Source: Verrucomicrobiota bacterium (GTDB taxonomy: Bacteria; Verrucomicrobiota; Verrucomicrobiia; Limisphaerales; JACPZS01). From it: 64,000 bases of DNA. The DNA is taken from positions 1-64,000 of the forward strand of contig JACPZS010000161.1 of assembly GCA_016195385.1 (NCBI GenBank). Reading direction: 5' to 3'. The translations under genes were made by a program, and so were the position numbers. How positions within the stretch are numbered: position 1 is the first letter of the stretch; each line of letters opens with the position of its first letter. Of the stretch, positions 21,121 to 43,993 are shown piece by piece. Below the pieces are notes generated by a model that was not told the DNA's origin, did not search any database, and was given only the letters and a program-made list of their open reading frames with translations.

Positions 21121-24100
21121 TCACGCCGCCTTTGCTTCGGCAAGCGCCTCATCGAGGCAACTTGCGGCGGTCGGGAGTATGCGCCGCAAGTCGGCGAGAC
21201 GTTCGTTGAGTGCGCGAATCACGGTGCCGGCATTCGTCTCGATCAAGCGGCGGTACCATTTCAAAAATTCCTGGCTCGTCTCGATTTCGTTCGCCGGAGG
21301 CGCGAGTTTGCCCACGTTACCGTTGAGGACTTCGCAAACGATCAACGCGGCGAATTGGCCCGGCTGTGTCGGCGAGTGCGCCTTGCGCCACCACGGCAAG
21401 GCTGCTTTGGCGTCGCCGTTGAGCAGCAGCGCCTCGGCGCGATGGAGCGCAAGTTGTAAATTCTCCGGGAAGAATCTTACCGCTTCGCCCGTCCAGTCGG
21501 CAGCGAATTCCGCAAAGCCGGGTGTGCGCAGCGCGATGTATCCGCCCGCGAGCCACGCGGATTCGTCCTGCGCGGATTCGGTGACGAGCGCGTGCAGTTG
21601 TTTGATCGCGTCGAGCGCGCGGCTTTGTTCGGCGAGAAACTTTGCGTAGTCGAAGCGCGCCGGACGCGAAGTCGCATCATCGGCGAGCGCGGCTTGAAAG
21701 GCTTTTTCCACGTCGGCGGGTTTTCCAATTTTCGCGAGACACATCGCGAGGCAATGCTGCGGCGCGGCTTTACGGATGTCTTTGTTCACCGGACAGAGCG
21801 CGGGTTGATTTCGCTTCGCCAGGCACTCGCGCATCTGCGCGGCAGCTTCGACCGGCCGTTGCAATTCCATCAACGCGAGGCCGAGTGTGAAATGGAGCGA
21901 CGCCGTAAGACCAGCGGATTTCGCCAGCGGCGCTTGGAGCAGACGCACAATTTGGTCGAACTGTTTCGCGCCCATCAAATGTGTGGCGAGTTGCGTCAGC
22001 AGCGTTTCGCGCAGTTCGGGCACGACCTGGCTCGCCGGCAGCGCGGACATCAAGTGAAACGCCTCCCAGTATTGTTCGAGGCCGGCTTCCAATTGACCGG
22101 AGCGCACGAGTTCGAGGCCGAAGTTCATGATCAAGTTAGGCTCGTTGGGTAGTTCTTCGATCGCGCGTTCGAGCAGGCGCAAATTGCGCGCGACTTTGTG
22201 GCGATCCTGCACGACGGCTTTGGTGTAGCCGTGATGGAGCAACTTCGCCGTGCCGAGCCGGTTTTCCAGATTCCACTCCTGGCGGCGCACTTCGAGACTG
22301 CTGAACACTTGCTCGTGGATGCGGCCAACAAAAAACAGACCCGGGGCATTACGAAACAATCGCGGCACGTAACTGCAACCTTCTTCTTCCGGATCGATAA
22401 TCGGCACGCGATACGCCATCACGTCCGGTGCCTGCATTTCTTTCAACAGCGCAGCGCGGCTCTCCGGCAGCAACTCCTCGTCCGCGTCCAAAATCAAAAT
22501 CCAATCTCCGGTCGCGTGCTCTAGCGCGGCGTTGCGCGCGGCGCTGAAATCATCGCACCACATGAACGAATGAACTTCCGCGCCGAACTCTTTGGCAATT
22601 TCGACGGTGCGATCCGTCGAGCCGGTGTCCACCACGACAATTTGTTGCGCGAATTCGCGCACCGACTTTAAGCAGCCTGCGAGAAAGCGCTCTTCATTTT
22701 TCGTGATGAGACAAACCGTGAGTGTGGGCGTGGACGAATCACGCAGCAGCGCTTCAAGCAACGGCGGCAGCGCGGCTTGAATGCCCATTTTCTTGTTCGG
22801 CGCACGGAGAAATTGCTGCGCCGGACGCCACTTCGGCACCAGGGCCAATGCACGATCCGCGCAGAATTTGACGAGCGAAGTGTCGTCGTGGATGCGGGCA
22901 ATCTCTGCCAGCAACAGCCAGCCTTCGGGATGGAATGGCCGAGCGACAATCGCTTGAGCCGTGGTTTCCCAAGCAGCCGCAAGTTGATTTTCTTTCAACT
23001 GCGCGCGGGCTTGCACGAGGTTTCCAACTTTCGCTGTTTCGGGCAGGACGAGCGGCTGCGGCTTGCGGGCGCGACGTTTCGCGATTGCATCCGCTTCGGC
23101 CTGCCGGCGCGCAAGCAACTCGCGCGCGCACTGGGCGGTCGCTTGAGCAGCGCGCGCCCACGTCCACTCGCGGCGCACATGCGCGCTCGCGGCGCTTCCT
23201 TTCGCGCGGGCGTCGTTGGGTTGCGAGTGGACGTGACGCATCTGCTGACCGAGCGCGTCGGCGTCCGGTTCGAGCCACCAACCGTTGCCGGCGAGCGGCA
23301 TTCCGCTGACTTCCGGGCCGAGCGAATGACGCCGGGCTGGAATGCGAAAAGCAAATTCATCTGTGGCAAAATCATCCGTCGAACCACCGGCAGTGACGAT
23401 GACCGGCAGACCGCACGCCATTGCTTCGAGCACGGGCAGGCCGAAACCTTCGCCGCGGTATGGATGCACGAGACAATCGCACGCCGCGTACAGACCGGGC
23501 ATCGCGTCGGGCGGCAATTCTTGATCGAGATAGAGAATCGCGGGCGCGCTGGGGTTCGCGGCGAGCGCCTTGATTTGCTCCGCGAGCGTCTGGCCCGCAT
23601 AAACCGTGCTGCCGCCGAAATCTTTAATCACGAGGCACACGTCATCGGCAGCGGTGAAATTCTGCAAATACGCTTTCAACAATACGTCCGGCCCTTTGCG
23701 CTGAATGGTCCCGCCGACGAACAGAAATTTGAACTTCTTATTCGTGGCGAGCGGCAGTGGTTTCACTTCCGGGCGAAAGTGTTCCGGGTCAATGCCAAGC
23801 GGCACGACTTTCACTTTTGCCGGATCGACGCCGGAGTCGATGTAGGCTCGGCGCGTGTGATGCGAATTGACCCACGCTTCGTCCACTTTGCCGAGTTGCT
23901 TGACCCATTCCGCGGGCAGCACGCCAAATTCCCACGGCTGCATCATCACCCAAGCGCCGCGTTCGGGCGCGGTCCAGTCCGGCGGCCAGGCTTGGCGAAT
24001 GGTGAGCTGGGTTTGCTTCGACGCTTGCGGTTTCAAGCGCCGCGCGAAATCACGCAGTGAAGCGTCGGACGGAGCTTGCGCGCTCGTGGTGTTCTGGCCG

Positions 24101-27100
24101 ACGCAGGTCAATTGCACGCCGGGCAGTTTGGAAAGTTGTTGAGCGAATTCGCGATTGACGTACGACAGGCTGCCGAAATCCAGGAATGAACCTTCCCAGG
24201 CGACGTGAATAGATTGCGAGTTTGGTTTCGGCTGCGGCAAAGAACGCGCCGCCATAGCGAGGCAAACGGGCGTGATTAACTTTTGTTCGATGACTTCGAG
24301 CCGCGCCACAACTTGCGCGGCGACGGCTTCGCAACTGAAGCGCGCCTGCATTCGCGAACGCGCGACTTTTCCTTTTGCCACAGCTTCGGCGGGGTTTTGC
24401 TGCACGCGGCGCATCAATTCGCGCAAATGATTTTCCTTCGGATCGGCCCAGCGATGCCCGCGATAATGCCACAGCTCCGGCTCCGTGCGCGTGACTTCCA
24501 CCAACTCGTAGTCGATCAAGTAGGAATTCTCCGCATTCATGAACGCAGTGTTGCCGCTCCAATTCGTCGCGATGACGGGCACGCCCATCATCATCGCTTC
24601 GTGATGCGGCCGCCCCCAGCCTTCGCCGCGACTCGGCGCGACGAGGCAATCAACGGCTTTGTAAAGGCGCGGCAGTTCCGCAGTGGGAATTTGTTCCGCC
24701 AGAATTTCGATGCGCGGCAGTTGCTTGTCACCGAGCACAAGTGTCGCGGCGTGTTGATCAATCAACCGGCGAATTGTCTGCGTCGGATCGCCGTCCGGCT
24801 GATTGACGAGATACGCGCGGAGATAAAGACAGACATCGTCCTGCGCGGAGAACTCGCGCAGATACGCGGACAACAGCACATCCCCGCCCTTGCGCGACGA
24901 CCATTCAAACACGGAAAGGAAATTGAATTTGGCGCGATTCGGCAGCGGTAGCGCTGTGTGGCGCACGGGATCAAAATGGTTTGCATCGACCGCGCCGGGA
25001 ATCACGACAAGCTTGTCGCGCTCGACGCCGCTGGCCGCGAACGTCTCACGGTTGAACTCGCTCGGCACCCACACTTCGTCCATCTGATTGCAGCGCGTGA
25101 CCCACGCGAGCGGCAGGCGATCCGTTTCGAACATCGTGCGGCCGATGTTGTACGCTGCGCCGGGTTGCGGCGCAAAACTGCTGCCCGGCGTATGCGTGAC
25201 GCAGATTTTGCCGGCGACTTCCGCGCGCGAACGCAGATGCTCGCTGAGGTGTTTCTGCAAATTCTTCGGAAGCCCCTCGACGAAGGATTTGGATTTGGTC
25301 TTCGCAACAGCGAAGAAATCGAGCTTGAGCGAACGCGGGAGATCTTGCGTTAGCGAAAATGCTTCGCTGCAATAGCCACTGGGATTTTGCCACGGCGCGA
25401 ACCAGACGACGTCGCGATGCGCAACTTCTAGCGGTTGTAGCGTGGTTGTGACAGGCGACTGCGGCGGCGTGGGTTTGATTTGCAATATCGGTGACGGAAA
25501 ATTGCCCGGAACCGTGACCCTCGTTGGCTGCGATGTCAGGCCCAGCATTTCTTCCCACACCGCGATGGAGGCGCGCGCGGTGTTTTCCCAGGAAAATTTC
25601 GCGGCCTGCGCGCGCCCTTTCACGCGCATCGCGTCGCGCTGTCTGGGGTTCTTCAGCAGTTCGACCATCGCGCGGCCGATGGCGGCGACGTCGTTCGGCC
25701 GGAACATCAACGCGGCGTCGCCCGCGACCTCGGGAATGGACGAGACGCCCGTGGTGATGACTGGACAATCCTGCGCCATCGCCTCCAACACGGGAAAACC
25801 AAAACCTTCCCACATGGAGAGGAAGAGCAATGCGACGGCATCGCGGTAGAGCACTTCGAGATCGGCGCGTGGGATGAAGCCGGTGAAAATGATGTCGCGC
25901 ATTTTCATCTGCTCGCAATGCTCGGCGATTTGCTTGAGGAAATGTTCTTTCTGTCCGACGACGACGAGTTGCGCGCGCGCGGCGCCGCGCATGGCGCCCA
26001 TCGCTTGAATTACGGCGGTGAAATTTTTGTGCGGATCGAGCGAGCCGACATGCAGGAAAAACGGCTGCGTGACGCCGTATTTTTTGCGGATGTCGCGGAT
26101 CACTGCCGGGGAAATCTGCGGCTGCGTTTCGGCACGATTCAACCCGGCCATGATCGTATGCACGCGGTCAGCGCCGAGGAGTCCGCAATTGATCACTTCC
26201 TGGCGCGTGCATTCGGAAATTGCCAGCAGGCGCGGGGCGCGCGCGGCCAGTTGTGCCAACCGTTCAAGGTAAGCGTGCTGGGCCGGCTTTTTCCAGCTAT
26301 CGATGTAAAAACGCAACGGCGTGACGTCATAAAAAATCGAAGTTGTTTCAACTCCCGACAACCGTTGCATTGGCGAGTCGAATCCCGGCGCGAGCGTCAG
26401 CGGGTCGGGGATGTGATACAGCGCCACGTCCGCCACTTTGACTTCCGCAAGTGACTTGACGCGCACGTTCGGCAGTTTGAGCAGCCGTGAAATCGCTTCA
26501 CTCGTTCCCGCCGGATCGCCGAGAATCCAAAATTCCCAGTCCGGCTTCAACTCGGCGCATTTTTGCAGATGATGAAACGCGTAGTGGCCGACGCCGCGAG
26601 CCATCGAATCCCCGCAATAAAACGTCTGGCCATCCACGGCGATGATTGGCTTGCCAATGGAGGAACGTTTGGCGGGACGCGCGGAAGCGGCAGGCGCGCT
26701 GGACGCTGGCGCAGTTTGCAACTGCGACTGGAGGAGACGAAGCTGCGTGGCTTCATCCAGCAGTCCGTTCACCTCAGCGAGCAGGATGCGGAACTCGATC
26801 ATCGCTGGCACGACCAAGTCGCCCGTCGATTCGAGCGGCGTCCCTTGCGCGAGGGCGGTGAGCGCCTTATCCACACGCATGTCCGCGATGCGAAATTGCA
26901 AATCCGTCAACGGTCGCCGCGACTGCGCGGCCAGCCACGCGGTTTTCTGTTGGAGCGTATCGCCGACCAGCAGATGCTCGCCGGGCACGGCGCGGAAAGG
27001 TTTGGCGAAGGCATCCTTGCGCACGTAGCCGTGGCGGACGTACGAGCTGAACGGCGTGAGGATGATGCCGAAGAGTTGCGTCGTCGCGTCCTCGAACCAG

Positions 27101-28554
27101 GTGTTTTGCGTGCCGAAGAACAGAAATTTTTTCGTGTGATGCGGATTCGCGTCGAAGCGCTGCTTCTCGCGGCGCGCGAACGTGTGCAGCCGTTTCATCA
27201 TCAACGCGGCAAAGCGTCCGCCTTCCGGTGAAGGTTTCGGCACGGTGTAGCCCGCGCGATTTTTCGTCACCGGAAAATTACCCATCCAAAGATCCAGGCA
27301 CACCACGAATGAACGCTCATAAAGTTGCCCCACCTCGGTCGCGACACATTCCTGCGGCAACGGCCCGCGCCCGTCACCGGCAGACATGGCTTCGGGATCG
27401 AAAAGAGTTTTCCCTGTGTGGCCGAAGTTCTTGCGGAACTCGGTGATAAGTTTGATGAACCCGGCGTTGCCGCCCACGTAACCGATGTCCGCCGTCGCGG
27501 GAATCTGACTGAGATGATCCGTGATGTACGGCAGCGCATGCTGGATGTCGTAGAGCAGGCCGTGATTGTAGGCTTCGCCGACGAGCGCGTTGTGGAGCAT
27601 GGGCGCGTCGAGGCCAGGCAGCATTTGCTCGAGCACGCGGAGGTAACGATTTTCGTGTTCGGCGGTCAGTCGAATTTCTTCGACGGGTTCGTGCGGCATG
27701 CCCCAGGTTTCGGCCTGTTGGGGAATGTACGGCGTGTGAACGTCGTTGACGAAATGGCGCCAGTCGTTGGCGGTGCCGCCTTCGGCGGTGTGCATCATCG
27801 TGTTCACGCGCGTGTGATCGCAGTGATACGAATGATAATGGTCGAGCAGCGAAGAAGTTTTGCCGTTCAAGAGAAACAGCCGGCGGCAAAGATTGCTGTC
27901 CACGTGCCAGCCGAGCACCATCTGCTCGTTCATGCCGTGGATGGCGAACATCTGCTGGCGCGGCGCGAGTTGGAAATCGCCGGGGCCGTCGAAAACATTT
28001 TCCGGATTGCCGATCACGCATTCGTTGAGGTGCAGCCGGCGGCCCCAGTGCTTGAATTGTTCGATGGTTTCCTGCGGCTTCAGCCGATCTGTGGATTCCC
28101 ACAAAATTTCGGGCATCTCGAAACGCGGCAGTTCATAGAGACAATCAGGTAATTTGGCGACGATTTCCGAAAGCGACTGACCGGGCTTGACAGGCACGAA
28201 CACGATGTCGGTGTTCGTGTTGAGAATCCAGCGGTTCTTCGGATTCGAACGGCGCATGGCCACGTTGCGGCACAGCGGTTCGAGCACTTTCATCTTCGTG
28301 CCGTTCTTGCCCTTCTCGTACGACGCGGGACGGAAGCGGAGAATGCGAAGCAATTTCTTGGCGCGCTCGGTCAGCGTGTCGCGGATCGACTCGGGAAACG
28401 TCGGCAGGTCATCCGGCGTGTTGCAATCGACAAAAATGATCTCATCATCCGGATGCGTGAGCACTTCCGCAATGCAGTTGAAACTGAGCGCCGCGCGCTT
28501 GTGGAGGTTGTAGCCGTACGAATCGTTGCGGCCGTAAAGGATGACAGAAATCAT
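21121..28554 (-). CDS. Giant multi-module glycosyltransferase (about five GT modules plus TPR)
   Basis: This single frame of 2,477 residues is the last gene of the flagellin-linked cluster. About 1-330: a GT-A-like module (MISVILYGRNDSYGYNLHKR, DDEIIFVDCNT, WILNTNTDIVFVP). About 400-620: an unassigned region. About 650-1050: GT4 module 1 (FLHVGSLDPHKNF, EGFGFPVLEAMAQDCPVITT near 915). About 1080-1430: GT4 module 2 (EGWGRPHHEAMMMGVPVIAT near 1305). About 1460-1830: GT4 module 3 (KFLFVGGTIQRKGPDVLLKA, EGFGLPVLEAMACGLPVIVT near 1698). About 1940-2190: a GT2 module (TVCLITKNEERFLAGCLKSV, VVVDTGSTDRTVEIA, ILDADEELLPE near 2021). The rest is TPR-like. No signal peptide or membrane helix is seen, so it probably works in the cytoplasm, adding several sugars in turn; the acceptor is inferred to be flagellin or a lipid-linked glycan. 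Confidence 0.93.
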   Translation of the reverse strand: MISVILYGRNDSYGYNLHKRAALSFNCIAEVLTHPDDEIIFVDCNTPDDLPTFPESIRDTLTERAKKLLRILRFRPASYEKGKNGTKMKVLEPLCRNVAMRRSNPKNRWILNTNTDIVFVPVKPGQSLSEIVAKLPDCLYELPRFEMPEILWESTDRLKPQETIEQFKHWGRRLHLNECVIGNPENVFDGPGDFQLAPRQQMFAIHGMNEQMVLGWHVDSNLCRRLFLLNGKTSSLLDHYHSYHCDHTRVNTMMHTAEGGTANDWRHFVNDVHTPYIPQQAETWGMPHEPVEEIRLTAEHENRYLRVLEQMLPGLDAPMLHNALVGEAYNHGLLYDIQHALPYITDHLSQIPATADIGYVGGNAGFIKLITEFRKNFGHTGKTLFDPEAMSAGDGRGPLPQECVATEVGQLYERSFVVCLDLWMGNFPVTKNRAGYTVPKPSPEGGRFAALMMKRLHTFARREKQRFDANPHHTKKFLFFGTQNTWFEDATTQLFGIILTPFSSYVRHGYVRKDAFAKPFRAVPGEHLLVGDTLQQKTAWLAAQSRRPLTDLQFRIADMRVDKALTALAQGTPLESTGDLVVPAMIEFRILLAEVNGLLDEATQLRLLQSQLQTAPASSAPAASARPAKRSSIGKPIIAVDGQTFYCGDSMARGVGHYAFHHLQKCAELKPDWEFWILGDPAGTSEAISRLLKLPNVRVKSLAEVKVADVALYHIPDPLTLAPGFDSPMQRLSGVETTSIFYDVTPLRFYIDSWKKPAQHAYLERLAQLAARAPRLLAISECTRQEVINCGLLGADRVHTIMAGLNRAETQPQISPAVIRDIRKKYGVTQPFFLHVGSLDPHKNFTAVIQAMGAMRGAARAQLVVVGQKEHFLKQIAEHCEQMKMRDIIFTGFIPRADLEVLYRDAVALLFLSMWEGFGFPVLEAMAQDCPVITTGVSSIPEVAGDAALMFRPNDVAAIGRAMVELLKNPRQRDAMRVKGRAQAAKFSWENTARASIAVWEEMLGLTSQPTRVTVPGNFPSPILQIKPTPPQSPVTTTLQPLEVAHRDVVWFAPWQNPSGYCSEAFSLTQDLPRSLKLDFFAVAKTKSKSFVEGLPKNLQKHLSEHLRSRAEVAGKICVTHTPGSSFAPQPGAAYNIGRTMFETDRLPLAWVTRCNQMDEVWVPSEFNRETFAASGVERDKLVVIPGAVDANHFDPVRHTALPLPNRAKFNFLSVFEWSSRKGGDVLLSAYLREFSAQDDVCLYLRAYLVNQPDGDPTQTIRRLIDQHAATLVLGDKQLPRIEILAEQIPTAELPRLYKAVDCLVAPSRGEGWGRPHHEAMMMGVPVIATNWSGNTAFMNAENSYLIDYELVEVTRTEPELWHYRGHRWADPKENHLRELMRRVQQNPAEAVAKGKVARSRMQARFSCEAVAAQVVARLEVIEQKLITPVCLAMAARSLPQPKPNSQSIHVAWEGSFLDFGSLSYVNREFAQQLSKLPGVQLTCVGQNTTSAQAPSDASLRDFARRLKPQASKQTQLTIRQAWPPDWTAPERGAWVMMQPWEFGVLPAEWVKQLGKVDEAWVNSHHTRRAYIDSGVDPAKVKVVPLGIDPEHFRPEVKPLPLATNKKFKFLFVGGTIQRKGPDVLLKAYLQNFTAADDVCLVIKDFGGSTVYAGQTLAEQIKALAANPSAPAILYLDQELPPDAMPGLYAACDCLVHPYRGEGFGLPVLEAMACGLPVIVTAGGSTDDFATDEFAFRIPARRHSLGPEVSGMPLAGNGWWLEPDADALGQQMRHVHSQPNDARAKGSAASAHVRREWTWARAAQATAQCARELLARRQAEADAIAKRRARKPQPLVLPETAKVGNLVQARAQLKENQLAAAWETTAQAIVARPFHPEGWLLLAEIARIHDDTSLVKFCADRALALVPKWRPAQQFLRAPNKKMGIQAALPPLLEALLRDSSTPTLTVCLITKNEERFLAGCLKSVREFAQQIVVVDTGSTDRTVEIAKEFGAEVHSFMWCDDFSAARNAALEHATGDWILILDADEELLPESRAALLKEMQAPDVMAYRVPIIDPEEEGCSYVPRLFRNAPGLFFVGRIHEQVFSSLEVRRQEWNLENRLGTAKLLHHGYTKAVVQDRHKVARNLRLLERAIEELPNEPNLIMNFGLELVRSGQLEAGLEQYWEAFHLMSALPASQVVPELRETLLTQLATHLMGAKQFDQIVRLLQAPLAKSAGLTASLHFTLGLALMELQRPVEAAAQMRECLAKRNQPALCPVNKDIRKAAPQHCLAMCLAKIGKPADVEKAFQAALADDATSRPARFDYAKFLAEQSRALDAIKQLHALVTESAQDESAWLAGGYIALRTPGFAEFAADWTGEAVRFFPENLQLALHRAEALLLNGDAKAALPWWRKAHSPTQPGQFAALIVCEVLNGNVGKLAPPANEIETSQEFLKWYRRLIETNAGTVIRALNERLADLRRILPTAASCLDEALAEAKAA

Positions 28555-28580: not shown

Positions 28581-29963
28581 TCATGCGGCCGACGCCGTGG
28601 CCAGATTGTCCTCGCGATGAGTTGCGAGCCGCGCCGGGGCGGCGAGGCGGCTGTAAATGATTTCCAAAACTTCGGCCAGTTCCTCGTTGCGTTCCCGCCG
28701 CGCCGAAGCCAGGTGGTAGAGGAGCATGGGCACCAGCGCCGGTTGACCGCGCGTGCCGTGCTTTTGGATCTCGGCGGAAATGTCGCGGGACGCGAAGAGC
28801 GCGTTGAGCGCTGCCGTGGCGTTCTCCACCTCGGATTCAGAAACCGGCTCCGGCCGGTTGAGCATCCGGCCAAGCGTATGACGCAGGCGCAGCATCTCAG
28901 GATTCGCTTCTGCCGGTGCGGGCGATGCGAAAGACGGCTGCGTGGACGCGAGCCTTTCCCGTCCGAAATGAAATAGTTTCCCTTCCTTGATGGCAGCGTC
29001 GAAAACCTTGTTGTAGTGTTGGTACGAAAGCTTTTCCCCCGCGAGTTCCGGCGTGAGCGCGTCGAGGCAGTAATCGAAATCAATGAGCGGCGCCAATTCG
29101 CTGCGGAATTTTTTCAGCAGCTCAATCGCGCAGTCCGGCAAATCAAAAATTTCAAAGAGGCAGGCGAGCTTGAGCTTTTTGATCGGGGAAAATTCGCGGG
29201 GCCACATGCGCTCAAAATCCGCGTCGCCGAGATCCTGGAAATACAACGCCTCGCCCCATTGCACGGCACCGTGCGTCGTTTGCGCGGGAATGTCGTAGAG
29301 AAACGGACGCGGCAGATCCGCGCGGCTGTAGCGATAGACATCGAGATTGAACAAGGTGAAACCTTGGTTACGGAGCAGACGATCGATGTTGCCGAACAAA
29401 TTCGCTTCGTCATCAATCGGGCCGAGGAATGGGCACTCGACCGTGAGGCCGAGGACGCCGCCGGCGGCGAGCGTCTGGCGCGCGCCGACAAGCACCGGAT
29501 AATCAGAACCATCGGTATCAATCTTGATGAAATCGACGGCACGGCGATTCGATTCGGGCAGCCATCCATCCACGGTGAGCTGTTTCTTCGACCACACCAT
29601 TTCCGCGCCGGAATTGAACACCTGCTGCTGATAATTCAGGTTCATCAAGCCGGTGGCACGCACCGCGCTCGTGCGCTGGAACGAGCCATTGTTGCGGGCG
29701 GCGATTTTGTCCAGGGGCTGCGTTGGCATTCCGGAGCCGACGAAGCCGTCCTCGTAGCGCACGCGTGGATTCGTCTCGATGCGATTGAGCCGCTCAACCT
29801 CGGTGACGAGCGGATCAAAGCCCGTGGCTTTCAGGTAGGGCTGGAAAACATTCCAATGTGGCTGGATGCCGCCGCTCGCGCCGACATCGAGCAGGAAAAA
29901 TTCCTCGGCGCTCAGGCAGCCTTGGGCGAGGACGTGTTTTGTGAAAGGAGTTTGCGAGTTCAT
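28581..29963 (-). CDS. FkbM-family methyltransferase with a cluster-specific C-terminal domain
   Basis: This is a 460-residue protein. The N-terminal part (about 20-270) is an FkbM-type SAM methyltransferase: FFLLDVGASGGIQPHW (SAM-binding loop), KATGFDPLVTEVERL, SAVRATGLMNLNYQQQ, DFIKIDTDGSDYPVLVGARQ and LTVECPFLGP. Such enzymes O-methylate sugars in glycans. About 361-450 is a separate helical domain (LGRMLNRPEPVSESEVENA, VPMLLYHLASARRERNEELA, EVLEIIYSRLAA) that is also present at the end of the neighbouring GT2 protein (29982-31223). It is 18 bp from that gene and 26 bp from the giant glycosyltransferase, within one operon, and is likely to cap or decorate the flagellin glycan. Confidence 0.88.
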   Translation of the reverse strand: MNSQTPFTKHVLAQGCLSAEEFFLLDVGASGGIQPHWNVFQPYLKATGFDPLVTEVERLNRIETNPRVRYEDGFVGSGMPTQPLDKIAARNNGSFQRTSAVRATGLMNLNYQQQVFNSGAEMVWSKKQLTVDGWLPESNRRAVDFIKIDTDGSDYPVLVGARQTLAAGGVLGLTVECPFLGPIDDEANLFGNIDRLLRNQGFTLFNLDVYRYSRADLPRPFLYDIPAQTTHGAVQWGEALYFQDLGDADFERMWPREFSPIKKLKLACLFEIFDLPDCAIELLKKFRSELAPLIDFDYCLDALTPELAGEKLSYQHYNKVFDAAIKEGKLFHFGRERLASTQPSFASPAPAEANPEMLRLRHTLGRMLNRPEPVSESEVENATAALNALFASRDISAEIQKHGTRGQPALVPMLLYHLASARRERNEELAEVLEIIYSRLAAPARLATHREDNLATASAA

Positions 29964-29981: not shown

Positions 29982-31223
29982 TCAGGCGGCGTGAGCGGTG
30001 CAGCGGCCGTAAATGGTTTCCAGCGCCTCCGCGAGCACATGGTTTTCCTCCATCCACGCCGCTTGCAGATGTTGCGCAATCAGCGGCACCGTGGCGGGGG
30101 GAAATTGCGCGATGCGGTCGCGAATGTGGGCAAGTGGATCCTCGGCGGTTACGATTTCGTTCAACGTGTTCATGGCCGCCACGAGGTCGGCTTCCGAAAC
30201 CGGCTCGGCTCGGCCGAGCATGCGCCCGATGCGCTGGCTCAACACCTCGAACGAACTGGCTGAATCGTTCGTTGGACCTGCGTCCGTCGGTAAATCAGCG
30301 GCTGCTTTTGGCGCGGGATCGCTGGTTGGATCACGAGCTTCCGTTTTCGCGGAAATCCTTTGGCGCACGCTTTCCAGCGGCTTGGCCGAGGGCGCGAGAC
30401 TTTCCGCCAGGTTGAACAGCCGTTCAAACTCGGCCGACTGTCCCTCGATGCGCAGCAAAGATTCCGCCGCCCAGGCGTAAATTCCCCCCACGGCCTCGCG
30501 ATAAATCTCGTGGTCGATGCCCACGCCGGCGCGCGTCAAATGGCGGCCTAACGCGGTGATCTTGTCCTGGCAGAACTGTTCGTACGTCGCGGCGCGGCAA
30601 CTCATGCTGTGCTCGCTGATGCGCGTGCTGCCAAAGAGATCCTGAACGAGATGGATCGGCAGATGGCTCAAACGCAGCCAGAGATCGAAATCCGCGCAGG
30701 TCTTCAACGTTTCGTCGAAGCGCAGTTCATCGCCACAAACCGCACGCGCGAAAAACGAAACCGAAAAGGGTGGAACCACTTCGCAACGCCGCAGACCCGC
30801 CAGCTCAAATTCGGGCGGCGTCCACGTGCTGGTGATTTTTCGGTGCTCGTCGATCATGTGCGACACGCCGTAGAACGCCGCCCAATCGGGGTGGGCTTGG
30901 AATTGCGCCGCCGTTTTTGCCAGCGCGTCCGGTTCGAGCAAATTATCCGCGTCGATGGTGCCGATGAGCGCGCCCTGGCAGCGGCGCACCGCGCGATTGT
31001 AGGCGTCGCCGATGCCGCCGTCCGGCTCGGACACGATTTCGATGGCCGGCAAATCGCAGAGGCTCCGTAGATATTCGAGCGAGCCATCGGTAGAACGCGC
31101 GTCCTGAACGATCAGTTCAAAGTCGCGAAAGGTTTGCGCCCGGACGGATTCGATTGCTTGTGGCAAATAGGGCATCCCGTTTTTGACGCAAAGAATCAGG
31201 GAGATAAGTGGAGTCGAGGACAT
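29982..31223 (-). CDS. GT2-family glycosyltransferase with a cluster-specific C-terminal domain
   Basis: This is a 413-residue protein. Residues about 7-230 form a GT-A fold glycosyltransferase of family 2: ISLILCVKNGMPYLPQAIES, FELIVQDARSTDGSLEYL, SEPDGGIGDAYNRAV and LIGTIDADNLLEPDAL (the DxD-type metal site). It has no membrane segments. The C-terminal domain (about 328-413: IGRMLGRAEPVSEADLVAA, VPLIAQHLQAAWMEENHVLA, EALETIYGRCTA) matches the one on the adjacent FkbM protein. It is 13 bp from the C-methyltransferase gene upstream. It probably transfers one sugar of the same glycan; donor and acceptor are unknown. Confidence 0.9.
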   Translation of the reverse strand: MSSTPLISLILCVKNGMPYLPQAIESVRAQTFRDFELIVQDARSTDGSLEYLRSLCDLPAIEIVSEPDGGIGDAYNRAVRRCQGALIGTIDADNLLEPDALAKTAAQFQAHPDWAAFYGVSHMIDEHRKITSTWTPPEFELAGLRRCEVVPPFSVSFFARAVCGDELRFDETLKTCADFDLWLRLSHLPIHLVQDLFGSTRISEHSMSCRAATYEQFCQDKITALGRHLTRAGVGIDHEIYREAVGGIYAWAAESLLRIEGQSAEFERLFNLAESLAPSAKPLESVRQRISAKTEARDPTSDPAPKAAADLPTDAGPTNDSASSFEVLSQRIGRMLGRAEPVSEADLVAAMNTLNEIVTAEDPLAHIRDRIAQFPPATVPLIAQHLQAAWMEENHVLAEALETIYGRCTAHAA

Positions 31224-31236
31224 AGCGTGATTTGAT

Positions 31237-32517
31237 CTAGTTAGTGGTTGATGAATCCGCCTTGATGATTCGCGGCGTCGGCAGCGGCACGATGAAGTCG
31301 CCGCGAAAACCTTTTTGTTTCAACTTCGGAATGAGTTCGTCGGCGATGTGCCACGAAAGCAGCAACGCGTATTCCGGCTGGTCCGCGAACAACCGGCTTT
31401 CCTCCAGCACGGGAATCAACGTGCCGGGAATGTATTTGCCGACTTTGTGCGAACCGCCGACTTCCAGGACGCAACCGAGGATCGCGTCGTCGAGTCCGAC
31501 GTAATTGATGAGCGTGCTGGCGCGCGACGGCGCGCCGATGCCGTAGATGCGGCCGCCGCGTTGCTTGATGTCGAGCGCGAGCGACTGCAACTGCATTTTG
31601 GAAAGCGCGACTTGGCGTTTGAACTCCGCCAGCCTGGCTCCATTCAGCGCCGAGCGTTTTTCCTCCAGCAGCATCGCGGCGACGCTGGCCTGCGCCGGAT
31701 ATTGGCCGGGCCGCGCGGCATAGACGCGGATCGAGCCGCCGTGTGTCGGAATGCGTTTCGCGTGAAACACCGTCAGCCCGTGCATTTCGAGCAGATACTT
31801 GAGGCTGTGCAGCGAGTAATAGCGCAGATGCTCGTGGTAGATCGTGTCGTATTGGAGCGTCTCGACGAGCGAGTGAACGTAATGCGACTCGGAGACGAAC
31901 ACGCCGTCCGGCGCGAGCAACGAAGTCAGATTGTCCACCACGGCGTGGACATCTTCGATGTGGGCAAAAACATTCGTGGCCGTAATGATTTTGGCCGCGC
32001 CTTTCTCGGCGCGAACTTTGGTGGCCGCCTCTGCGTTAAAAAAAGAGATGAGCGTTGGAATGTCACGCTGATTGGCGAGGTTGCCGACGTTGGCTGGCTC
32101 GATGCCCTGGACGCGGTGGTGTGGGGCGAAGTTGCTCAATAGCGTGCCGTCATTCGCGCCGATATCCACGACGAGATCGTCGGGCTTCAGCGGCAGGAGC
32201 GAGCGGCATTCGCGGTAAAGCTCGGCGAAATTTTCGCGGAGAATTTTGGTGGTGCCGCTCGTGTAGGGATATTCGGGCGGGAACAAAACGCGCGGATCGA
32301 CAATCAAGCCGAGCTGAATCAACTGGCAGCACGGGCAGCGCAAAAGCTGCGCCGGATAACCCGGTTGCTCGTGCGGTGTCGAGCCGATCGCCGGCATCGT
32401 ATTGACCGGCGGCAGATAGCCGAGGAAGAGGACGTTTTCCAAGCCCGGTGATTTGCAGACCTGGCAGGATTTCACCACCGCGCTGGAACCGGTGCCAAGA
32501 GTAAGAGGTGTTTTCAT
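31237..32517 (-). CDS. SAM-dependent sugar C-methyltransferase (NovU/TylC3-like)
   Basis: The start at ATG 32517 gives 426 residues; longer in-frame readings run into the epimerase gene. The architecture is that of NDP-sugar C-methyltransferases: an N-terminal zinc-binding part (CQVCKSPGLENVLFLGYLPP, then LLRCPCCQLIQLG), a central SAM domain (DDLVVDIGANDGTLLSNF, RVQGIEPANVGNLA) and a C-terminal extension (YSLHSLKYLLEMHGLTVFHA, GGSIRVYAAR, GGRIYGIGAPSRASTLINYV). Such enzymes add a methyl group to carbon 3 or 5 of a keto-sugar nucleotide. It lies 28 bp after the epimerase/dehydratase and 13 bp before the GT2 gene, fitting synthesis of a branched sugar for the glycan. Confidence 0.93.
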   Translation of the reverse strand: MKTPLTLGTGSSAVVKSCQVCKSPGLENVLFLGYLPPVNTMPAIGSTPHEQPGYPAQLLRCPCCQLIQLGLIVDPRVLFPPEYPYTSGTTKILRENFAELYRECRSLLPLKPDDLVVDIGANDGTLLSNFAPHHRVQGIEPANVGNLANQRDIPTLISFFNAEAATKVRAEKGAAKIITATNVFAHIEDVHAVVDNLTSLLAPDGVFVSESHYVHSLVETLQYDTIYHEHLRYYSLHSLKYLLEMHGLTVFHAKRIPTHGGSIRVYAARPGQYPAQASVAAMLLEEKRSALNGARLAEFKRQVALSKMQLQSLALDIKQRGGRIYGIGAPSRASTLINYVGLDDAILGCVLEVGGSHKVGKYIPGTLIPVLEESRLFADQPEYALLLSWHIADELIPKLKQKGFRGDFIVPLPTPRIIKADSSTTN

Positions 32518-32545
32518 GGGAAGATAATTGGAGTGAGTGATTTCA

Positions 32546-33556
32546 TCAGGCAGCTCGAGAAATGGGCGGCGCAGACGAAGCCTGCGGACGGAGATGCGCA
32601 TGCTCATCGTACCAGCGCGCCACGCCGGGCAAACCAGCGCGGAACGCGACGCGCGGCGCAAAACCAAGCCGGCGGAGTTTCGTGATGTCAGGACAACGGC
32701 GCAGCGTGCTGCCGGGCTGGAGCGGGCCAGGCTGTATCTCGATGGCGCGTCCGAAGTAGCGGGCCACTTCGCGGGCGGCTTCGGCCACGCTCGTCTCTTC
32801 GTCCGAACCCACATGATAGATGTTCAGGTGCTCACCGCGATCGAGCAGGAAGGCAAGCCCGTCCGTGAAATCGTCGATGTGCGTGAACGCGCGCGTCTCG
32901 GAGCCGGTGCCTTGAATCGGAAAATGGATCGTGCCCGACGAAGCCGTGCAAAGTTCCTTCAGCCGCAGGACGAATTGCGGCAGGACGTGCTCCCAGCCCA
33001 TGTTTGGCCCATAGACATTGTGTGGACGAAAAATCACCACGCGATCGAAGTGAACGCGGCCGTAGTTGATCGCAAGAAGTTCGCTGATGATTTTTCCGCC
33101 GCCATACGAATAGCGCGGGTTCAGCGGATCCGGGACCGAGAGCGGCGCGGATTCGTCCGTCGGAACCGTGGGCGGTGTTTGATAAACCTCGGAGCTGGAC
33201 GCCAGCGCCAGTTCACGCACACTAGCAGCCCGGCAGCCATTTAGCACGTTCATCATTCCCGTCACCGCGACGTCGAGAATCAAATCCGGCTTCGTGTAAA
33301 AAAATTCCGTGCCATTGACATAAGCCAGGTGGATGACGCTCTCCACGCCGTGACAAGCGCGGCGCACGGTTTCCGCGTCGCGGATGTCAGCGCGAACAAA
33401 CTCAAGTTCACTCATCACGTCTCGCAGCCGATCGGCGCTGCCGCGCGAATCGTTGTCGAGCACCCGCACGCGATGACCGTCGCGAAGCAGACGTTGGACG
33501 ACCGCGCTGCCGATGAAGCCAGTGCCGCCGGTGACAAGATAATTTTTTGCGCTCAT
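32546..33556 (-). CDS. NAD-dependent nucleotide-sugar epimerase/dehydratase
   Basis: ATG 33556 is chosen: it gives 336 residues starting MSAKNYLVTGGTGFIGSAVV, with the Rossmann GxxGxxG at the very N terminus, and overlaps the aminotransferase stop as ATGA. Catalytic Ser/Tyr/Lys features are LALASSSEVYQTPP and YSYGGGKIISELLA (YxxxK). RPHNVYGPNMGWEHVLPQFV and the SETRAFTHIDDFTDGL stretch are typical of extended SDR enzymes acting on UDP- or dTDP-sugars. The exact reaction (4-epimerase, 4,6-dehydratase or reductase) cannot be told by eye. It is coupled to a PLP aminotransferase, as in amino-sugar pathways. Confidence 0.93.
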   Translation of the reverse strand: MSAKNYLVTGGTGFIGSAVVQRLLRDGHRVRVLDNDSRGSADRLRDVMSELEFVRADIRDAETVRRACHGVESVIHLAYVNGTEFFYTKPDLILDVAVTGMMNVLNGCRAASVRELALASSSEVYQTPPTVPTDESAPLSVPDPLNPRYSYGGGKIISELLAINYGRVHFDRVVIFRPHNVYGPNMGWEHVLPQFVLRLKELCTASSGTIHFPIQGTGSETRAFTHIDDFTDGLAFLLDRGEHLNIYHVGSDEETSVAEAAREVARYFGRAIEIQPGPLQPGSTLRRCPDITKLRRLGFAPRVAFRAGLPGVARWYDEHAHLRPQASSAPPISRAA

Positions 33557-34731
33557 GCGGCGATCTTCGCGATGGCGCGCTTGGGCAATGGCGTCATGGT
33601 GCGATGCGCTTTCGCTCCACTGTCTGATCGGGATGGTTGCGCGGCCCATTCGACTACCGCGCGGCAAACCGTGAGCACATCCCCATCAGTCAGCGTAAAC
33701 GCTGACGGCAACCAGAGCGCGTTCGGTCCCAGCCGGGTGCTGTTCGGAAAACGATCGTTGGTTGCTCGATACGGCGTCTGCGTGTGCAAAGGGAACCAGA
33801 AACGGCGGCAGAAAATCTGGCGCGCTTCCAAAAACTCGACCAGCGCGTCGCGGTCTTCCACCAGCGCATCCGTCCATTGCGGCACTTCGCCGGCGGCGAG
33901 ATCGAAGCCTGGCAATGTGATTGGTTCGCAGTCGGCCAATTCCACGGCGTAGATCGAAAAGATTTTCTTCTGGCGCTCGATTCGTTCCGGCAACGCGTCA
34001 AGCTGCGCCAGCCCCACAGCCGCCTGTAGGTTGGTGAGTTTGAAATTGAAGCCGACAGCGTGATGCACGTCATCGCCGCCCGTGCCGCGTCCGCGACGGC
34101 CGTGATCCTTCAACTCACGCAATCGCGTGTGCAGCGCATCGTCATTCGTTAGCACCATTCCGCCCTGGCCGGTGGTGATCGTTTTGTTCGGCGAGAAGGA
34201 GAGGCAACCGGCCGCGCCGATGGTTCCAAGACATTTTCCGTCTAGACGCGAGAGCAGCGCCTCGGCGGCATCTTCGACGACGAAGAGATTGTGCGCTTCG
34301 GCCACGCGTCGGATCGCGGGCAGGTCGGCGGCGCGTCCACTGACATGCACCGGCATGATGGCTTTGGTGCGCGGGGTGATCGCTTCGGCGATCTGCCGCG
34401 GGCAGATGTTGAGCGTGAGCGGGTCCACATCAACGAGCACCGGGGTGGCGCCCGCAAGCTTCACCGCATTGGCCGTAGCAATGAACGTGATGTCCGGCAC
34501 GATCACTTCATCGCCCGGGCCGACGCCCAGCGCAGCCAGTGCGAGGAACAGTGCAGTGGTTCCGCTCGTGACGGCGACGGCGTGTTTCGCTCCGACCAAC
34601 GCAGCGACTTCGCACTCGAAGCGTGATGTAACTTCGCCGTCATTGAGATAATTGCTCGCGAGCACTTCTGCGATCAGGTGTTGCTCCGTGCCGGCAAGTT
34701 GCGGTGACCACCAGGGAATGGGTTTGTTCAT
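33553..34731 (-). CDS. DegT/DnrJ/EryC1-type PLP sugar aminotransferase
   Basis: This 392-residue protein has the motifs of sugar aminotransferases: EVAALVGAKHAVAVTSGTTA, GDEVIVPDITFIATANAVKL, LFVVEDAAEALLS, and the PLP lysine in LSFSPNKTITTGQGGM followed by LKDHGRRGRG. It converts a keto-sugar nucleotide into an amino sugar with glutamate as donor. ATGA overlaps link it to the formyltransferase upstream (34728-34731) and the epimerase downstream (33553-33556), so the three are translationally coupled. With the formyltransferase it points to a formamido sugar. Cytoplasmic. Confidence 0.95.
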   Translation of the reverse strand: MNKPIPWWSPQLAGTEQHLIAEVLASNYLNDGEVTSRFECEVAALVGAKHAVAVTSGTTALFLALAALGVGPGDEVIVPDITFIATANAVKLAGATPVLVDVDPLTLNICPRQIAEAITPRTKAIMPVHVSGRAADLPAIRRVAEAHNLFVVEDAAEALLSRLDGKCLGTIGAAGCLSFSPNKTITTGQGGMVLTNDDALHTRLRELKDHGRRGRGTGGDDVHHAVGFNFKLTNLQAAVGLAQLDALPERIERQKKIFSIYAVELADCEPITLPGFDLAAGEVPQWTDALVEDRDALVEFLEARQIFCRRFWFPLHTQTPYRATNDRFPNSTRLGPNALWLPSAFTLTDGDVLTVCRAVVEWAAQPSRSDSGAKAHRTMTPLPKRAIAKIAA

Positions 34732-35423
34732 GCGTCTTTTCGTGATGGCAGTTCAAAGCGCAGACCGGCGACCTCCATGAATGGGCCGGGGAATCGGCTG
34801 TGACGAACGGCGCGTTCCTTTCGGGCGATAAGCTCCGGCGAATCGTTCGGCGAGAGCGTCATCCATTTTTCAAACTCTTTCCGCGTGATTGCTTTGCGCC
34901 GCCAGGAGTCGCCGGAGGGTTCGACAAGCCCGCTGCTCGCGACGCTGGCGAGCACTTCGTAGAACTGCATCAACGAGTAATTCAGGCTGCGGTTAAAGAG
35001 CTGCTCGCAGGTCTCCGCACGCAGGATGGGAAAACGAAGCACGCGGAGGATCGGGCCGGCGTCCACTTGACCTGTCATTATGTGAGCCGTCACGCCGAAG
35101 TCAGAGGCATTCTCGAAAAGCGCGAAACTGGCGGAGCCAATGCCGGGCCATTCGGGAGGTGCCGGATGAAAATTGATCGCGGCGCGCGTCACCTTCGCGA
35201 GCAGTGCTTCCGGCAGGATCACCGGGGAGAGAAAATTGAAAAGAAAATCGATCGGTTGCCGGGAAAGCATTTGATCCAACTCGGGAGGCAGTGATTTTTG
35301 ACCGCGTCCCTGCCGGCCGATGAACCGGACTTCGAAGGCGCTCCGCGCGAATTCCTCGGCCGAGTTGGCCAGGTGCTCGTGGTCCGAGGTGAGCAGTACG
35401 CAAGAGTAAGGAAGTGGGTTCAT
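34728..35423 (-). CDS. Formyltransferase-family protein (probable sugar N-formyltransferase)
   Basis: This is a 231-residue protein of the methionyl-tRNA formyltransferase fold. The catalytic region is clear: INFHPAPPEWPGIGSASFAL (His of the Asn-His-Asp set) and TAHIMTGQVDAGPILRV (the Asp). It lacks the C-terminal tRNA-binding domain of true Fmt enzymes (about 310 residues), and lies between a nucleotide-sugar dehydrogenase and an aminotransferase, overlapping the latter by ATGA. The likely reaction is transfer of a formyl group from 10-formyl-tetrahydrofolate to the amino sugar made by the neighbouring aminotransferase. N-formyl sugars are known from O-antigens and surface glycans; the assignment to the flagellin glycan is inference. 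Confidence 0.85.
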   Translation of the reverse strand: MNPLPYSCVLLTSDHEHLANSAEEFARSAFEVRFIGRQGRGQKSLPPELDQMLSRQPIDFLFNFLSPVILPEALLAKVTRAAINFHPAPPEWPGIGSASFALFENASDFGVTAHIMTGQVDAGPILRVLRFPILRAETCEQLFNRSLNYSLMQFYEVLASVASSGLVEPSGDSWRRKAITRKEFEKWMTLSPNDSPELIARKERAVRHSRFPGPFMEVAGLRFELPSRKDA

Positions 35424-35432
35424 GCGGGCGCG

Positions 35433-36692
35433 TCACGCGACCTGGGCTAGTCGCTCGTGAACCTCTTTCTCTTTCACTGTTTGCCGCGGTATTACTCCCC
35501 ACACATCCACCAACTCGGTGTCGCTCGGAACAAAAAGCTTTTTGTAAGCGCTGTGCGGCGCGCCGACGATGACGACATCGCTGGTTGAAAGAAGTTCCTC
35601 CTTGCTGACAAACGTCGGATCCTGCGCGAATTCGTCGGAGTAGGACACCTGCGCGCCGTGGAATCGCAGAATCTTGCCGAGCTTGTAGGAGAGCGAATCG
35701 CGCGTGTCGTCGATGTCCGCCTTGAAGGCCATGCCGAGGATTCCCACTCGCGTGTGCGCCAGATCACGCTTCTGGCGCAACTGCTCGACGATAAAATTAG
35801 GCAGCCCTTCATTCACCATCATGGCCGCCTGGCCGAGCGCGAAATTGTAGTTGTTGAACGCGGAGAGTTGCATCGTGTCCTTGAGCAGACACGGCCCGGC
35901 GGCAAAGCCTGCGGCCGGCAGGCTTGCCGCGCGGCCGTAGCCTTGGATCATCGCTTCGCGGACGTGATTGAAATCCACGCCGAAGCCTTGGGCCATCATG
36001 TAAAATTGATTTGCGGCGGCGAACTGGATGTAGCGCCACGCGTTGGAAAAAAGTTTCGCCAACTCTGCCTCCTCGATGGAGACGGGAATGACGCGCGGCG
36101 CAATCCGGGAGAAGAGTTGCATGGCGTCGCGCTGCGCCGCATCGGTGAGGCCGGCGGCGAGCTGGGGTAACTCCTTGAGTTCGCGAATCGCGTGTCCCTG
36201 CGCGATGCGTTCCGGACAGTACGCGATCCGCCACGGCCCGCTGCCGTCCCGGCTCAACGCGTCGTGAACGGCGCGACAGGTGCGCGGGAAAACGGTACTA
36301 CGAATGATCAGCGTCTGCGCGGGCGAAAGGTGCGGCCGTAGGAGCGCGAACAAATCGAGCAACGCCTTGAGCTTCGGATTAAGGTATTCGTCCACCGGCG
36401 TGCCGACGGCGATGATGATATGGCGCGCTTTCGCAACGTCGCACACATCCGCAGTCAATTCCAAATTGCGCCCGAGCACCGCTTGGAGAATCGGTTCCGC
36501 GGCGTATTCGACGAATGGCATCTTCCTCTGGCGAACATGCGCCAGGGCTTCTGTGTTCGTGTCGAACAAAGTGACGCGCGCGCCGCTTTCGGCGAAAGCC
36601 AGCCCCAGCGGCAAACCGACGTGGCCTAATCCGCCGACAATGCAAATGTCGGTCGAGAATTGATTGGCTGCGGAAGACGAGTTGAAGTTCAT
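35433..36692 (-). CDS. Nucleotide-sugar dehydrogenase (UDP-sugar 6-dehydrogenase type), first of two
   Basis: This 419-residue protein starts with the NAD-binding motif CIVGGLGHVGLPLGLAFAES. Further on: IIIAVGTPVDEYLNPKL, ELAKLFSNAWRYIQFAAANQ, the catalytic cysteine in FAAGPCLLKDTMQLSAF, and VGILGMAFKADIDDTRDSLS, as in UDP-glucose/UDP-ManNAc dehydrogenases. It oxidises C6 of a sugar nucleotide to the uronic acid in two NAD-dependent steps. ATGA overlap with the Nudix gene upstream; 9 bp to the formyltransferase. A second, only distantly similar member of the family lies at 39046. Exact sugar unknown. Confidence 0.92.
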   Translation of the reverse strand: MNFNSSSAANQFSTDICIVGGLGHVGLPLGLAFAESGARVTLFDTNTEALAHVRQRKMPFVEYAAEPILQAVLGRNLELTADVCDVAKARHIIIAVGTPVDEYLNPKLKALLDLFALLRPHLSPAQTLIIRSTVFPRTCRAVHDALSRDGSGPWRIAYCPERIAQGHAIRELKELPQLAAGLTDAAQRDAMQLFSRIAPRVIPVSIEEAELAKLFSNAWRYIQFAAANQFYMMAQGFGVDFNHVREAMIQGYGRAASLPAAGFAAGPCLLKDTMQLSAFNNYNFALGQAAMMVNEGLPNFIVEQLRQKRDLAHTRVGILGMAFKADIDDTRDSLSYKLGKILRFHGAQVSYSDEFAQDPTFVSKEELLSTSDVVIVGAPHSAYKKLFVPSDTELVDVWGVIPRQTVKEKEVHERLAQVA

Positions 36693-37276
36693 GCGGCCTG
36701 GGAGGTTGTCCGTGGCGTCAGTTGTTCCAGTCCGCTGATCCGCAATTCGTACAGAAACAAGACGCCGATGTGGAGCTGAAGACCGAACGCGCCCGAGCGG
36801 ACGAGATTCTTGAGTTGATCGAAGGTGACGAATTCGAGATCCATGCCTGGTTCGTGAATAAATGCCGCATTCGGTTCGCCGGTTTCGACGAAGAACGCGT
36901 GTTGCTTGTTTTCCAGCCGGCCCGTGTCGGCGAAAAACGAGCCGAGGTGCGTGAGCGACTTCACTTCGAGGCCGGTCTCCTCGCGCAATTCGCGGCGACA
37001 GGTTTGTTCCGGGTCTTCATTGGCTTCGAGCAAGCCGGCCGGCAGTTCCCAAGTGCAGGCTTCAATTGCTGGCCGAAACTGGCGGACCACCGGGAACAAA
37101 CCGCCCGGCGTGCGTGCCAGGATCGTGATGTAGTCGCGCGGCGCGAGAAAATGGTAAACCTCCGGCGGTTGGCCGGGGGCAAATTCGACTTCTTTTTCAA
37201 TCAGCCGGACCCACGGTGAAATGCGCGTTTCGCGGCGGGAAAGGATGCGGGCGGGCGAAGGGCGGACGGTTTTCAT
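36689..37276 (-). CDS. Nudix hydrolase (ADP-ribose/ADP-sugar pyrophosphatase type)
   Basis: ATG 37276 gives 195 residues; the longer reading runs into nadE. The Nudix box is complete: GLLEANEDPEQTCRRELREE followed by TGLEV (GX5EX7REUXEEXGU). Flanking sequence (YITILARTPGGLFPVVRQFR, CTWELPAG, FFADTGRLENKQHAFFVETG) resembles ADP-ribose or ADP-sugar pyrophosphatases. The gene starts 5 bp after the NAD synthetase stop and overlaps the sugar dehydrogenase by ATGA, so it is made with NAD-making and NAD-using enzymes. It may recycle ADP-ribose from NAD breakdown or hydrolyse a sugar nucleotide; I cannot decide which. Confidence 0.93.
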   Translation of the reverse strand: MKTVRPSPARILSRRETRISPWVRLIEKEVEFAPGQPPEVYHFLAPRDYITILARTPGGLFPVVRQFRPAIEACTWELPAGLLEANEDPEQTCRRELREETGLEVKSLTHLGSFFADTGRLENKQHAFFVETGEPNAAFIHEPGMDLEFVTFDQLKNLVRSGAFGLQLHIGVLFLYELRISGLEQLTPRTTSQAA

Positions 37277-37281
37277 GCGAG

Positions 37282-39045: not shown

Positions 39046-40602
39046 TCAGTTGCCATTGCTGGTGAATTCAATGATGCGATGGCGGTCGGCGGCGGATCGT
39101 TTGCGGACTTTGAGCGGAGATTTTCTTTCGGCGAAATCAGCCGGAGCCACGTTTGCGGCGGGCAATTTCGGATCCGGTTTCTCCAAAATGCGCGGTGTGT
39201 GCAGACCGGGATTCCATAGTTCGATGAGCCGGAGCGCGTTGTCCGCGTCGGCCACACTGCAACCGATGGGGACGTAGTTGATGTGCTCCTGACCGCGCAG
39301 TTCCTTTTCCAAAACGCGCCAGAAATCGACGACGGTGATGGAGCGTTCAAGGCGCGGAAAGTCAGCTGCCTTCAAATTTTGAAACGCCGGATCGGGCGTC
39401 GTGATCAAAACCACTTCCGCCTGCGCGAGACAATCCGCCAGACTGTCGAGCATCAAGATCTGGCCGCGGAATTCAGTGTGCGCCGCGTCGCGGGCGAGCG
39501 GGTCGAACGCGACTACGCGCGCGCCGTGCTTGAACAACTGCCAGGCGATTTCAATCGACTGCGATTCCTCGATGATGTGCGAGTGCGGTTTGTAGGCGAG
39601 GCCCAGAATGGCGACCGTCGTGCCGCGTCTCACGTAAGGCTTGAGATGCTTGACGATGCGCTCGGGCAGCGAGCGATTCGAGCGGTCGGTGGTTTCCGAA
39701 ATGTCCGCGCTGGTGCCGAGCGCGCGGGCGAGAAAGCCGAGGGCGACATTGTCGCGCGGGAAACACGGGCCGCCAAAGCCGAGCGCGCCCTTGAGATATT
39801 TCGCACCGACCCGCTTGTCCGCGCCGACGGCGGCGGTGACAACATCGACGTTGCCGCCAGGAATGCGTTCGCACAAATCGGCGAGCATGTTGGCGAAAGT
39901 GATTTTTGTGGTGACGAAGGCGTTGACGGAAATTTTCGTCAGCTCGGCGTTTTCCAAACTCATGCGTTTGCACGGAGCATTGTTCAGCATGATTTGCGAA
40001 TACGCTTTTTCCAAAATGCCGCCGCAACGTTCGTCGAATTCGCCGATGAGCGTGAAGTCGGGGTTCAAAAAATCGCGAATGACACTGCCGAGCGCGATGA
40101 ATTCGGGGCTGTAACACAGACCAAAGTCGCGTCCGCACTGCTTGCCGGATTCCTGTTCGAGAATCGGCAGCAGGCCGTAGCGCATCGAGCCGGGCAGCAC
40201 GGTGCTCGTGAGCACGATGGTGTGATAATCTTTTTTCTTCGCGAGCGCGCGGCCGAGTTCCTTGAATGCCCACGAGGCGTACTGGAGCGAGAACGCGCCG
40301 CGATCATCGCTCGGCGTCGGCACGATGACGAACGTCACGTCAGAACCGAGCACGGCCTCTTCATGGCTGCGTGTGGCGCGAATGCGCTCCTTGTTCGCGG
40401 CGACCATTTCTTCGAGATTGGTTTCCTGGACGGGCGCGTGGCCGGCGGCGAGTTGGTCCACGGCGCGTTGATTGACATCAACGCCGATGACGTGGAAGCC
40501 GCGGCTGGCCATGGCGGCGGCCATGCTCGCGCCAAGTTTGCCGAGTCCGATGATGGAAAATTTCAGGGCGGGTTGCGTGGGGATTGGTGAGGAGGTTTTC
40601 AT
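39046..40602 (-). CDS. Nucleotide-sugar dehydrogenase (UDP-glucose/GDP-mannose type), second of two
   Basis: This 518-residue protein has the NAD motif FSIIGLGKLGASMAAAMASR, VTFVIVPTPSDDRGAFSLQY, AELTKISVNAFVTTKITFAN, the catalytic cysteine in LGFGGPCFPRDNVALGF, and VAILGLAYKPHSHIIEESQS. It is longer than usual (about 430-450) because of a C-terminal tail (about 430-518) containing FWRVLEKELRGQEHINYVPI and a basic, repeat-poor end. It likely oxidises a UDP- or GDP-sugar to its uronic acid. It lies 9 bp downstream of the TPR-methyltransferase gene and 33 bp upstream of nadE. It differs enough from the 35433 dehydrogenase to suggest a different sugar. Confidence 0.92.
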   Translation of the reverse strand: MKTSSPIPTQPALKFSIIGLGKLGASMAAAMASRGFHVIGVDVNQRAVDQLAAGHAPVQETNLEEMVAANKERIRATRSHEEAVLGSDVTFVIVPTPSDDRGAFSLQYASWAFKELGRALAKKKDYHTIVLTSTVLPGSMRYGLLPILEQESGKQCGRDFGLCYSPEFIALGSVIRDFLNPDFTLIGEFDERCGGILEKAYSQIMLNNAPCKRMSLENAELTKISVNAFVTTKITFANMLADLCERIPGGNVDVVTAAVGADKRVGAKYLKGALGFGGPCFPRDNVALGFLARALGTSADISETTDRSNRSLPERIVKHLKPYVRRGTTVAILGLAYKPHSHIIEESQSIEIAWQLFKHGARVVAFDPLARDAAHTEFRGQILMLDSLADCLAQAEVVLITTPDPAFQNLKAADFPRLERSITVVDFWRVLEKELRGQEHINYVPIGCSVADADNALRLIELWNPGLHTPRILEKPDPKLPAANVAPADFAERKSPLKVRKRSAADRHRIIEFTSNGN

Positions 40603-43967: not shown

Positions 43968-43993
43968 ACAATTCAACTTTTGCGATGCTGTTA

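Follow-up and report, generated by a model that had tools for sequence, protein, structure and literature searches.

The window analysed here, a 64,000-nucleotide stretch from a Verrucomicrobiota bacterium, carries in a flagellin operon a single reading frame in which glycosyltransferase modules follow one another, raising the question of whether one polypeptide can build an ordered glycan and on which acceptor it would do so. As a rule, separate enzymes assemble the glycans of proteins, and sugar order is difficult to read from the genes.

Modular organization of the giant frame

The initial annotation of this DNA had proposed a 2477-residue protein encoded by one uninterrupted frame. An open ATG-initiated frame of this length (the giant) is indeed present at 21121–28554, though on the minus strand (28554 to 21121), the plus strand of the same segment being full of stops; neither the strand nor the relationship to GmaR, the constant-end and variable-front pattern and the nested module order described below had been recognized. 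Pfam searches identified three separate GT4 stretches (PF00534, E 7e-62, and PF13692), one GT2 domain and TPR repeats, as had been predicted, and the chain is described here as modules A to G, all on the minus strand. Module A (residues 1–310; 27625–28554) has no profile match and module B (residues 311–640; 26635–27624) is an alpha/beta domain with weak methyltransferase-like fold matches only. Modules C (residues 641–1020; 25495–26634), D (residues 1040–1430; 24265–25437) and E (residues 1448–1830; 23065–24213) each combine a GT4 profile match with an intact EX7E donor-site motif, namely EGFGFPVLE at 916–924, EGWGRPHHE at 1311–1319 and EGFGLPVLE at 1702–1710, within a few residues of the positions originally given (915, 1305 and 1698). 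In the PDB, module C is most closely related to MshA-type, BshA-type and mannosyl transferases. Module F (residues 1835–2180; 22015–23052) consists of a helical/TPR lead-in and a GmaR/SunS-like GT2 domain, matched by PF00535 at residues 1946–2079 (E 4e-25; 89 bits against a cut-off of 23.3), close to where a GT2 module had been placed (1940–2190), and contains DTGSTD and DAD motifs, the latter at residues 2023–2025. The C-terminal module G (residues 2181–2477; 21124–22014) is a TPR superhelix. No transmembrane stretch was apparent on inspection of the giant sequence, which agrees with the earlier description of a cytoplasmic chain beside flagellin.

At the level of sequence, four of the five glycosyltransferase modules originally proposed are confirmed and the fifth, at the N-terminus, is possible. 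Its description as a GT-A-like module is unproven: residues 1–640 gave no Pfam match at E ≤ 1, no relevant PDB profile match and a single NCBIfam match with an E value of only 0.2. Alignment of module A with the GT2 profile of module F (hhalign) was weak (E 0.12) and placed 'WILNTNTD' of module A over 'WILILDAD' of module F, which is suggestive only. As the AF2 model of A+B was poor (pLDDT 57) and its fold matches were weak and methyltransferase-like, no claim is made about the structure of this region. Module A shares 66–67% identity with the N-terminal half of proteins of 617–632 residues that stand alone in genomes of the Trichlorobacter/Geobacter type. A class-wide search with A+B recovered only the genome of the window itself and a partial A in G103; the region is present in genome G012 and missing from nearly all relatives. 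In Trichlorobacter the gene immediately after A-B encodes a 1067-residue E-TPR-F protein, which matches the order of the modules in the fused giant, and flagellin lies downstream on the shared contig in all three Trichlorobacter-type A-B loci. A-B is thus a mobile module.

The C-terminal module is related to flagellin glycosyltransferases

The best solved relative of the F+G sequence is the glycosyltransferase domain of GmaR (22ao; E 2e-32), followed by SunS (5e-23). The AF2 model of F+G was confident (pLDDT 91.4), with ThuS/SunS and the TPRs of OGT as its best PDB folds. SunS and ThuS glycosylate polypeptides directly. F+G also matched the SunS family TIGR04195 (E 7e-24), but at 84.4 bits it lies far under the cut-off of 350, and the giant has no bacteriocin context. 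GmaR, the flagellin O-GlcNAc transferase and MogR antirepressor of Listeria monocytogenes, transfers GlcNAc to flagellin (PMC9638930), and F+G resembles it in that a homologous GT2 domain precedes TPR-type helical repeats in a flagellar gene setting, so that a GmaR-type activity is predicted. GmaR has one glycosyltransferase domain plus an antirepressor domain (PMC9638930), whereas the giant has several more glycosyltransferase modules in front; it is not claimed to be GmaR proper, and an antirepressor role is not indicated. The TPR domain of FlmG binds flagellin (PMC7591256), and the TPRs of the giant are better read as part of a C-terminal flagellin-glycosyltransferase module than as the general scaffold for all modules that had been envisaged. 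Elsewhere in the class, in other families, the relative of F stands by itself as a gene of 371–376 codons, longer in G129 and G093 (533–542). In three of the loci checked it lies beside flagellin, at distances of 102 bp (L117), 131 bp (L119) and, on the opposite strand, 118 bp (L120).

The giant gene closes a flagellin operon

In the window the giant is the last gene of a same-strand run, fliW-csrA-fliC followed by 11 sugar genes, in which genes as called overlap or are separated by 9–114 bp from fliW to the giant; the giant lies 13.8 kb from fliC. The run, on the minus strand throughout, is preceded by a sigma-28-type promoter-like box (TAAA-N14-GCCGATA; 44237–44261; one found against 0.03 expected) upstream of fliW, whilst scans around fliC for sigma-70 promoters and terminators yielded no more than chance would give. 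It begins with FliW (43542–44021; PF02623, E 6e-36), a CsrA-like protein assigned from sequence (43229–43516; MLILSRKINESIIID...) and a 270-residue flagellin (42385–43197; PF00669/PF00700). The genes between flagellin and the giant encode a TPR and methyltransferase protein (40612–42270), a UDP-glucose/GDP-mannose dehydrogenase family protein (39046–40602), a glutamine-dependent NAD synthetase-like protein (37282–39012), a NUDIX protein whose true start is probably downstream of the listed one (36689–37489), a second UDP-glucose/GDP-mannose dehydrogenase family protein (35433–36692), a formyltransferase (34728–35423), a DegT/DnrJ/EryC1 sugar aminotransferase (33553–34731), an NAD-dependent sugar epimerase/dehydratase (32546–33667), a sugar C-methyltransferase (Methyltransf_13/23/14; 31237–32814), a stand-alone GT2 protein (29982–31223) and an FkbM-type methyltransferase (28581–29963) ending 26 bp before the giant. 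The combination of dehydrogenase, formyltransferase, aminotransferase and epimerase genes may point to a formylated or methylated amino sugar. The NAD synthetase-like protein encoded within this sugar operon might have been co-opted to act as a sugar amidotransferase. Elsewhere in the window, CheD and an HDOD protein are encoded at 44576–45927 on the strand opposite to the operon, and a 1650-residue protein combining DUF5122 beta-propeller repeats with four immunoglobulin-like domains is encoded at 54826–59778.

Among 286 genomes of the class, 75 with and 211 without flagellin, F+G was found in 23, all of which have flagellin, and in none of the 211 flagellin-less genomes (hypergeometric 2e-15, a value inflated by kinship as the order of the window accounts for 22 of the 23). 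Within the limited flanks available, flagellin was located within 14 kb of 14 of the 36 F-bearing ORFs; it was absent from the flanking stretch examined at L069 and L072–L076. Genomes that have the F system and those that lack it are not told apart by the serine/threonine richness of their flagellin. At one locus (L035, 11717–17298) three tandem flagellins of 431–687 residues with long middle domains immediately precede a D-E-TPR-F giant. In a Geobacter-type genome a 2230-residue TPR protein with three GT9-type stretches (L104, 2098–8787) lies directly before flagellin and may be a different multi-module flagellin enzyme.

A constant C-terminal end and nested front modules

The GT2-TPR module is C-terminal in all 36 F-bearing ORFs. 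Their architectures are F or F-G (13), E-F (13), D-E-F (8) and A-B-C-D-E-F-G (2), without exception, although some of these ORFs end at contig ends and front modules may be hidden. E, when present, is ahead of F, D ahead of E and C ahead of D, with an extra TPR stretch between E and F in some cases. In the order of the window modules are thus added N-terminally in a strictly nested manner, from F to E-F, D-E-F and A-B-C-D-E-F. In the bacterial order of Trichlorobacter/Geobacter, relatives of up to 3053 residues likewise carry E followed by F close to the C-terminal end, and the placing of E before F is therefore a rule shared by two distant groups. Front ends vary and include GT2, GT4, GT11, GT29-like, WbsX, HAD and TPR segments as well as FkbM and other methyltransferases. 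Since methyltransferase, HAD or long TPR stretches occur inside sister proteins, some segments add no sugar.

Modules C, D and E each form a monophyletic group, and with 54–60% identity within but only 17–27% between types they represent old distinct modules rather than recent copies. Every D module and every E module except one has EX7E, and DTGSxD and DADE occur in 36 of 36 F modules. The E module of one D-E-F protein (L076; genome G190, contig C11) lacks the EGFG.P..E and RKG motifs that are kept in 22 other E modules and, judged by these motifs, may be inactive with D and F kept; the same genome has a second, intact copy (L075). Module distances correlate for E-F (rho 0.46), whilst D-E and D-F, based on nine proteins, fall short of significance, and these correlations show neither that the modules descended jointly nor that D was shuffled.

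Sister proteins reach 4432 residues. The longest frame (L087; genome G051, contig C5, 23595–36890) contains at least four GT2 and two GT4 modules and dozens of TPRs. This frame, which carries D, immediately precedes a 1196-residue frame carrying E-F, and the pair is a two-protein version of the line of the giant.

Discussion

We consider it probable that the giant acts in the cytoplasm as a soluble assembly line on which a flagellin O-glycan is started by F+G and extended by the upstream modules. The multi-glycosyltransferase chain, its place in a flagellin operon, its conservation and the GmaR-homologous C-terminus together make ordered glycan building on flagellin likely; of the processive or ordered assembly suggested in the initial annotation, nothing points to processivity. 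F+G would bind flagellin before export and attach the first sugar to serine or threonine, as GmaR does, after which the GT4 modules would extend it in the order E, D and C, and the A-B region would add or modify a residue further out. The activated sugars would be made by the products of the genes lying between fliC and the giant. We infer flagellin to be the acceptor of every module, the sugars being laid down in C- to N-terminal module order; the identities proposed for them are likewise drawn from the gene set. The chain may have grown by N-terminal fusion of new modules onto an old flagellin-initiating enzyme. The nested order fits an assembly line, but stepwise N-terminal fusion alone would also yield nesting.

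That the long frame is an assembly chimera or a decayed, functionless fusion has a practically negligible probability. The genome of the window is a 263-contig assembly, which would favour a chimera, but the giant gene is internal to a contig of 103 kb, G012 (L023) has A-B-C-D-E-F-G in identical order, cut only by a contig end, and related giants are present in many genomes of this order, including a 1954-residue frame in the one-contig closed genome G285. The recurrence of the modules in identical order in other genomes rules out an assembly artefact or chance. Between the window and G012 the third codon position differs most in every module, indicating purifying selection throughout, and the catalytic motifs are kept. 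Of the two grounds on which the initial annotation would have abandoned its reading, loss of catalytic residues from most modules and a fusion artefact, neither applies, the fusion recurring in independent assemblies.

GT4 enzymes commonly use lipid-linked or small-molecule acceptors. This habit, and the relatives of module C listed above, would suit an arrangement in which only module F acts on flagellin, with the GT4 modules making a surface glycan, lipid-linked or of another kind, and being fused for co-expression or localization. Such an arrangement appears unlikely given the fixed order beside F in two distant groups, the lack of an apparent membrane segment, the tie to the presence of flagellin and the extension of known flagellin glycans by enzymes of one shared locus (PMC5207246). 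The loci with no flagellin in the stretch examined (L069, L072–L076) would be accommodated if the target were another protein or an exopolysaccharide and the proximity of flagellin incidental, yet this is very improbable when F+G is confined to flagellin-bearing genomes of the class, GmaR is its best solved relative and fliW-csrA-fliC heads the operon in the window.

Parts of this system have precedents, GmaR-like flagellin O-glycosylation and extension by neighbouring glycosyltransferases being already known (PMC9638930, PMC5207246). In C. difficile type B flagellin modification a first glycosyltransferase (GlcNAc) and a second with a methyltransferase domain are encoded separately (PMC5207246); this cluster resembles the giant in having initiating then extending transferases beside fliC, but as separate genes rather than one chain. 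FlmG of Caulobacter is similarly cytoplasmic, combines TPRs with a glycosyltransferase and is flagellin-specific (PMC7591256), but has a single GT-B/OGT-like transferase of a different family. The A111/114R protein of chlorovirus PBCV-1 is soluble, carries three glycosyltransferase domains in a single chain and has been proposed to assemble part of a glycan linked to protein (PMC7826918); in contrast to the giant it is viral, has only three domains, serves an N-glycan, involves no flagellin and lacks an initiating module. Searches of open-access papers yielded no description of multi-module flagellin glycosyltransferases, although earlier work may exist, and none of a family of 1200–4400-residue lines that share one flagellin-initiating end and differ by exchange of their fronts.

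Among relatives the end unit is retained while the fused front differs, which suggests an assembly line building the flagellin sugar chain. A stronger form of this proposal, that the line is template-like, with C- to N-terminal module order setting sugar order outward from flagellin and lineages diversifying the flagellar glycan by N-terminal module swaps, by analogy with modular polyketide synthases, is advanced only tentatively, as rather less than an even prospect. With members that have F alone, E-F, D-E-F or longer chains, the family forms a natural ladder on which such an order rule could be tested directly. If module order is indeed sugar order, the gene would allow the glycan to be predicted, and swapping modules in a laboratory system could be used to write defined protein glycans.
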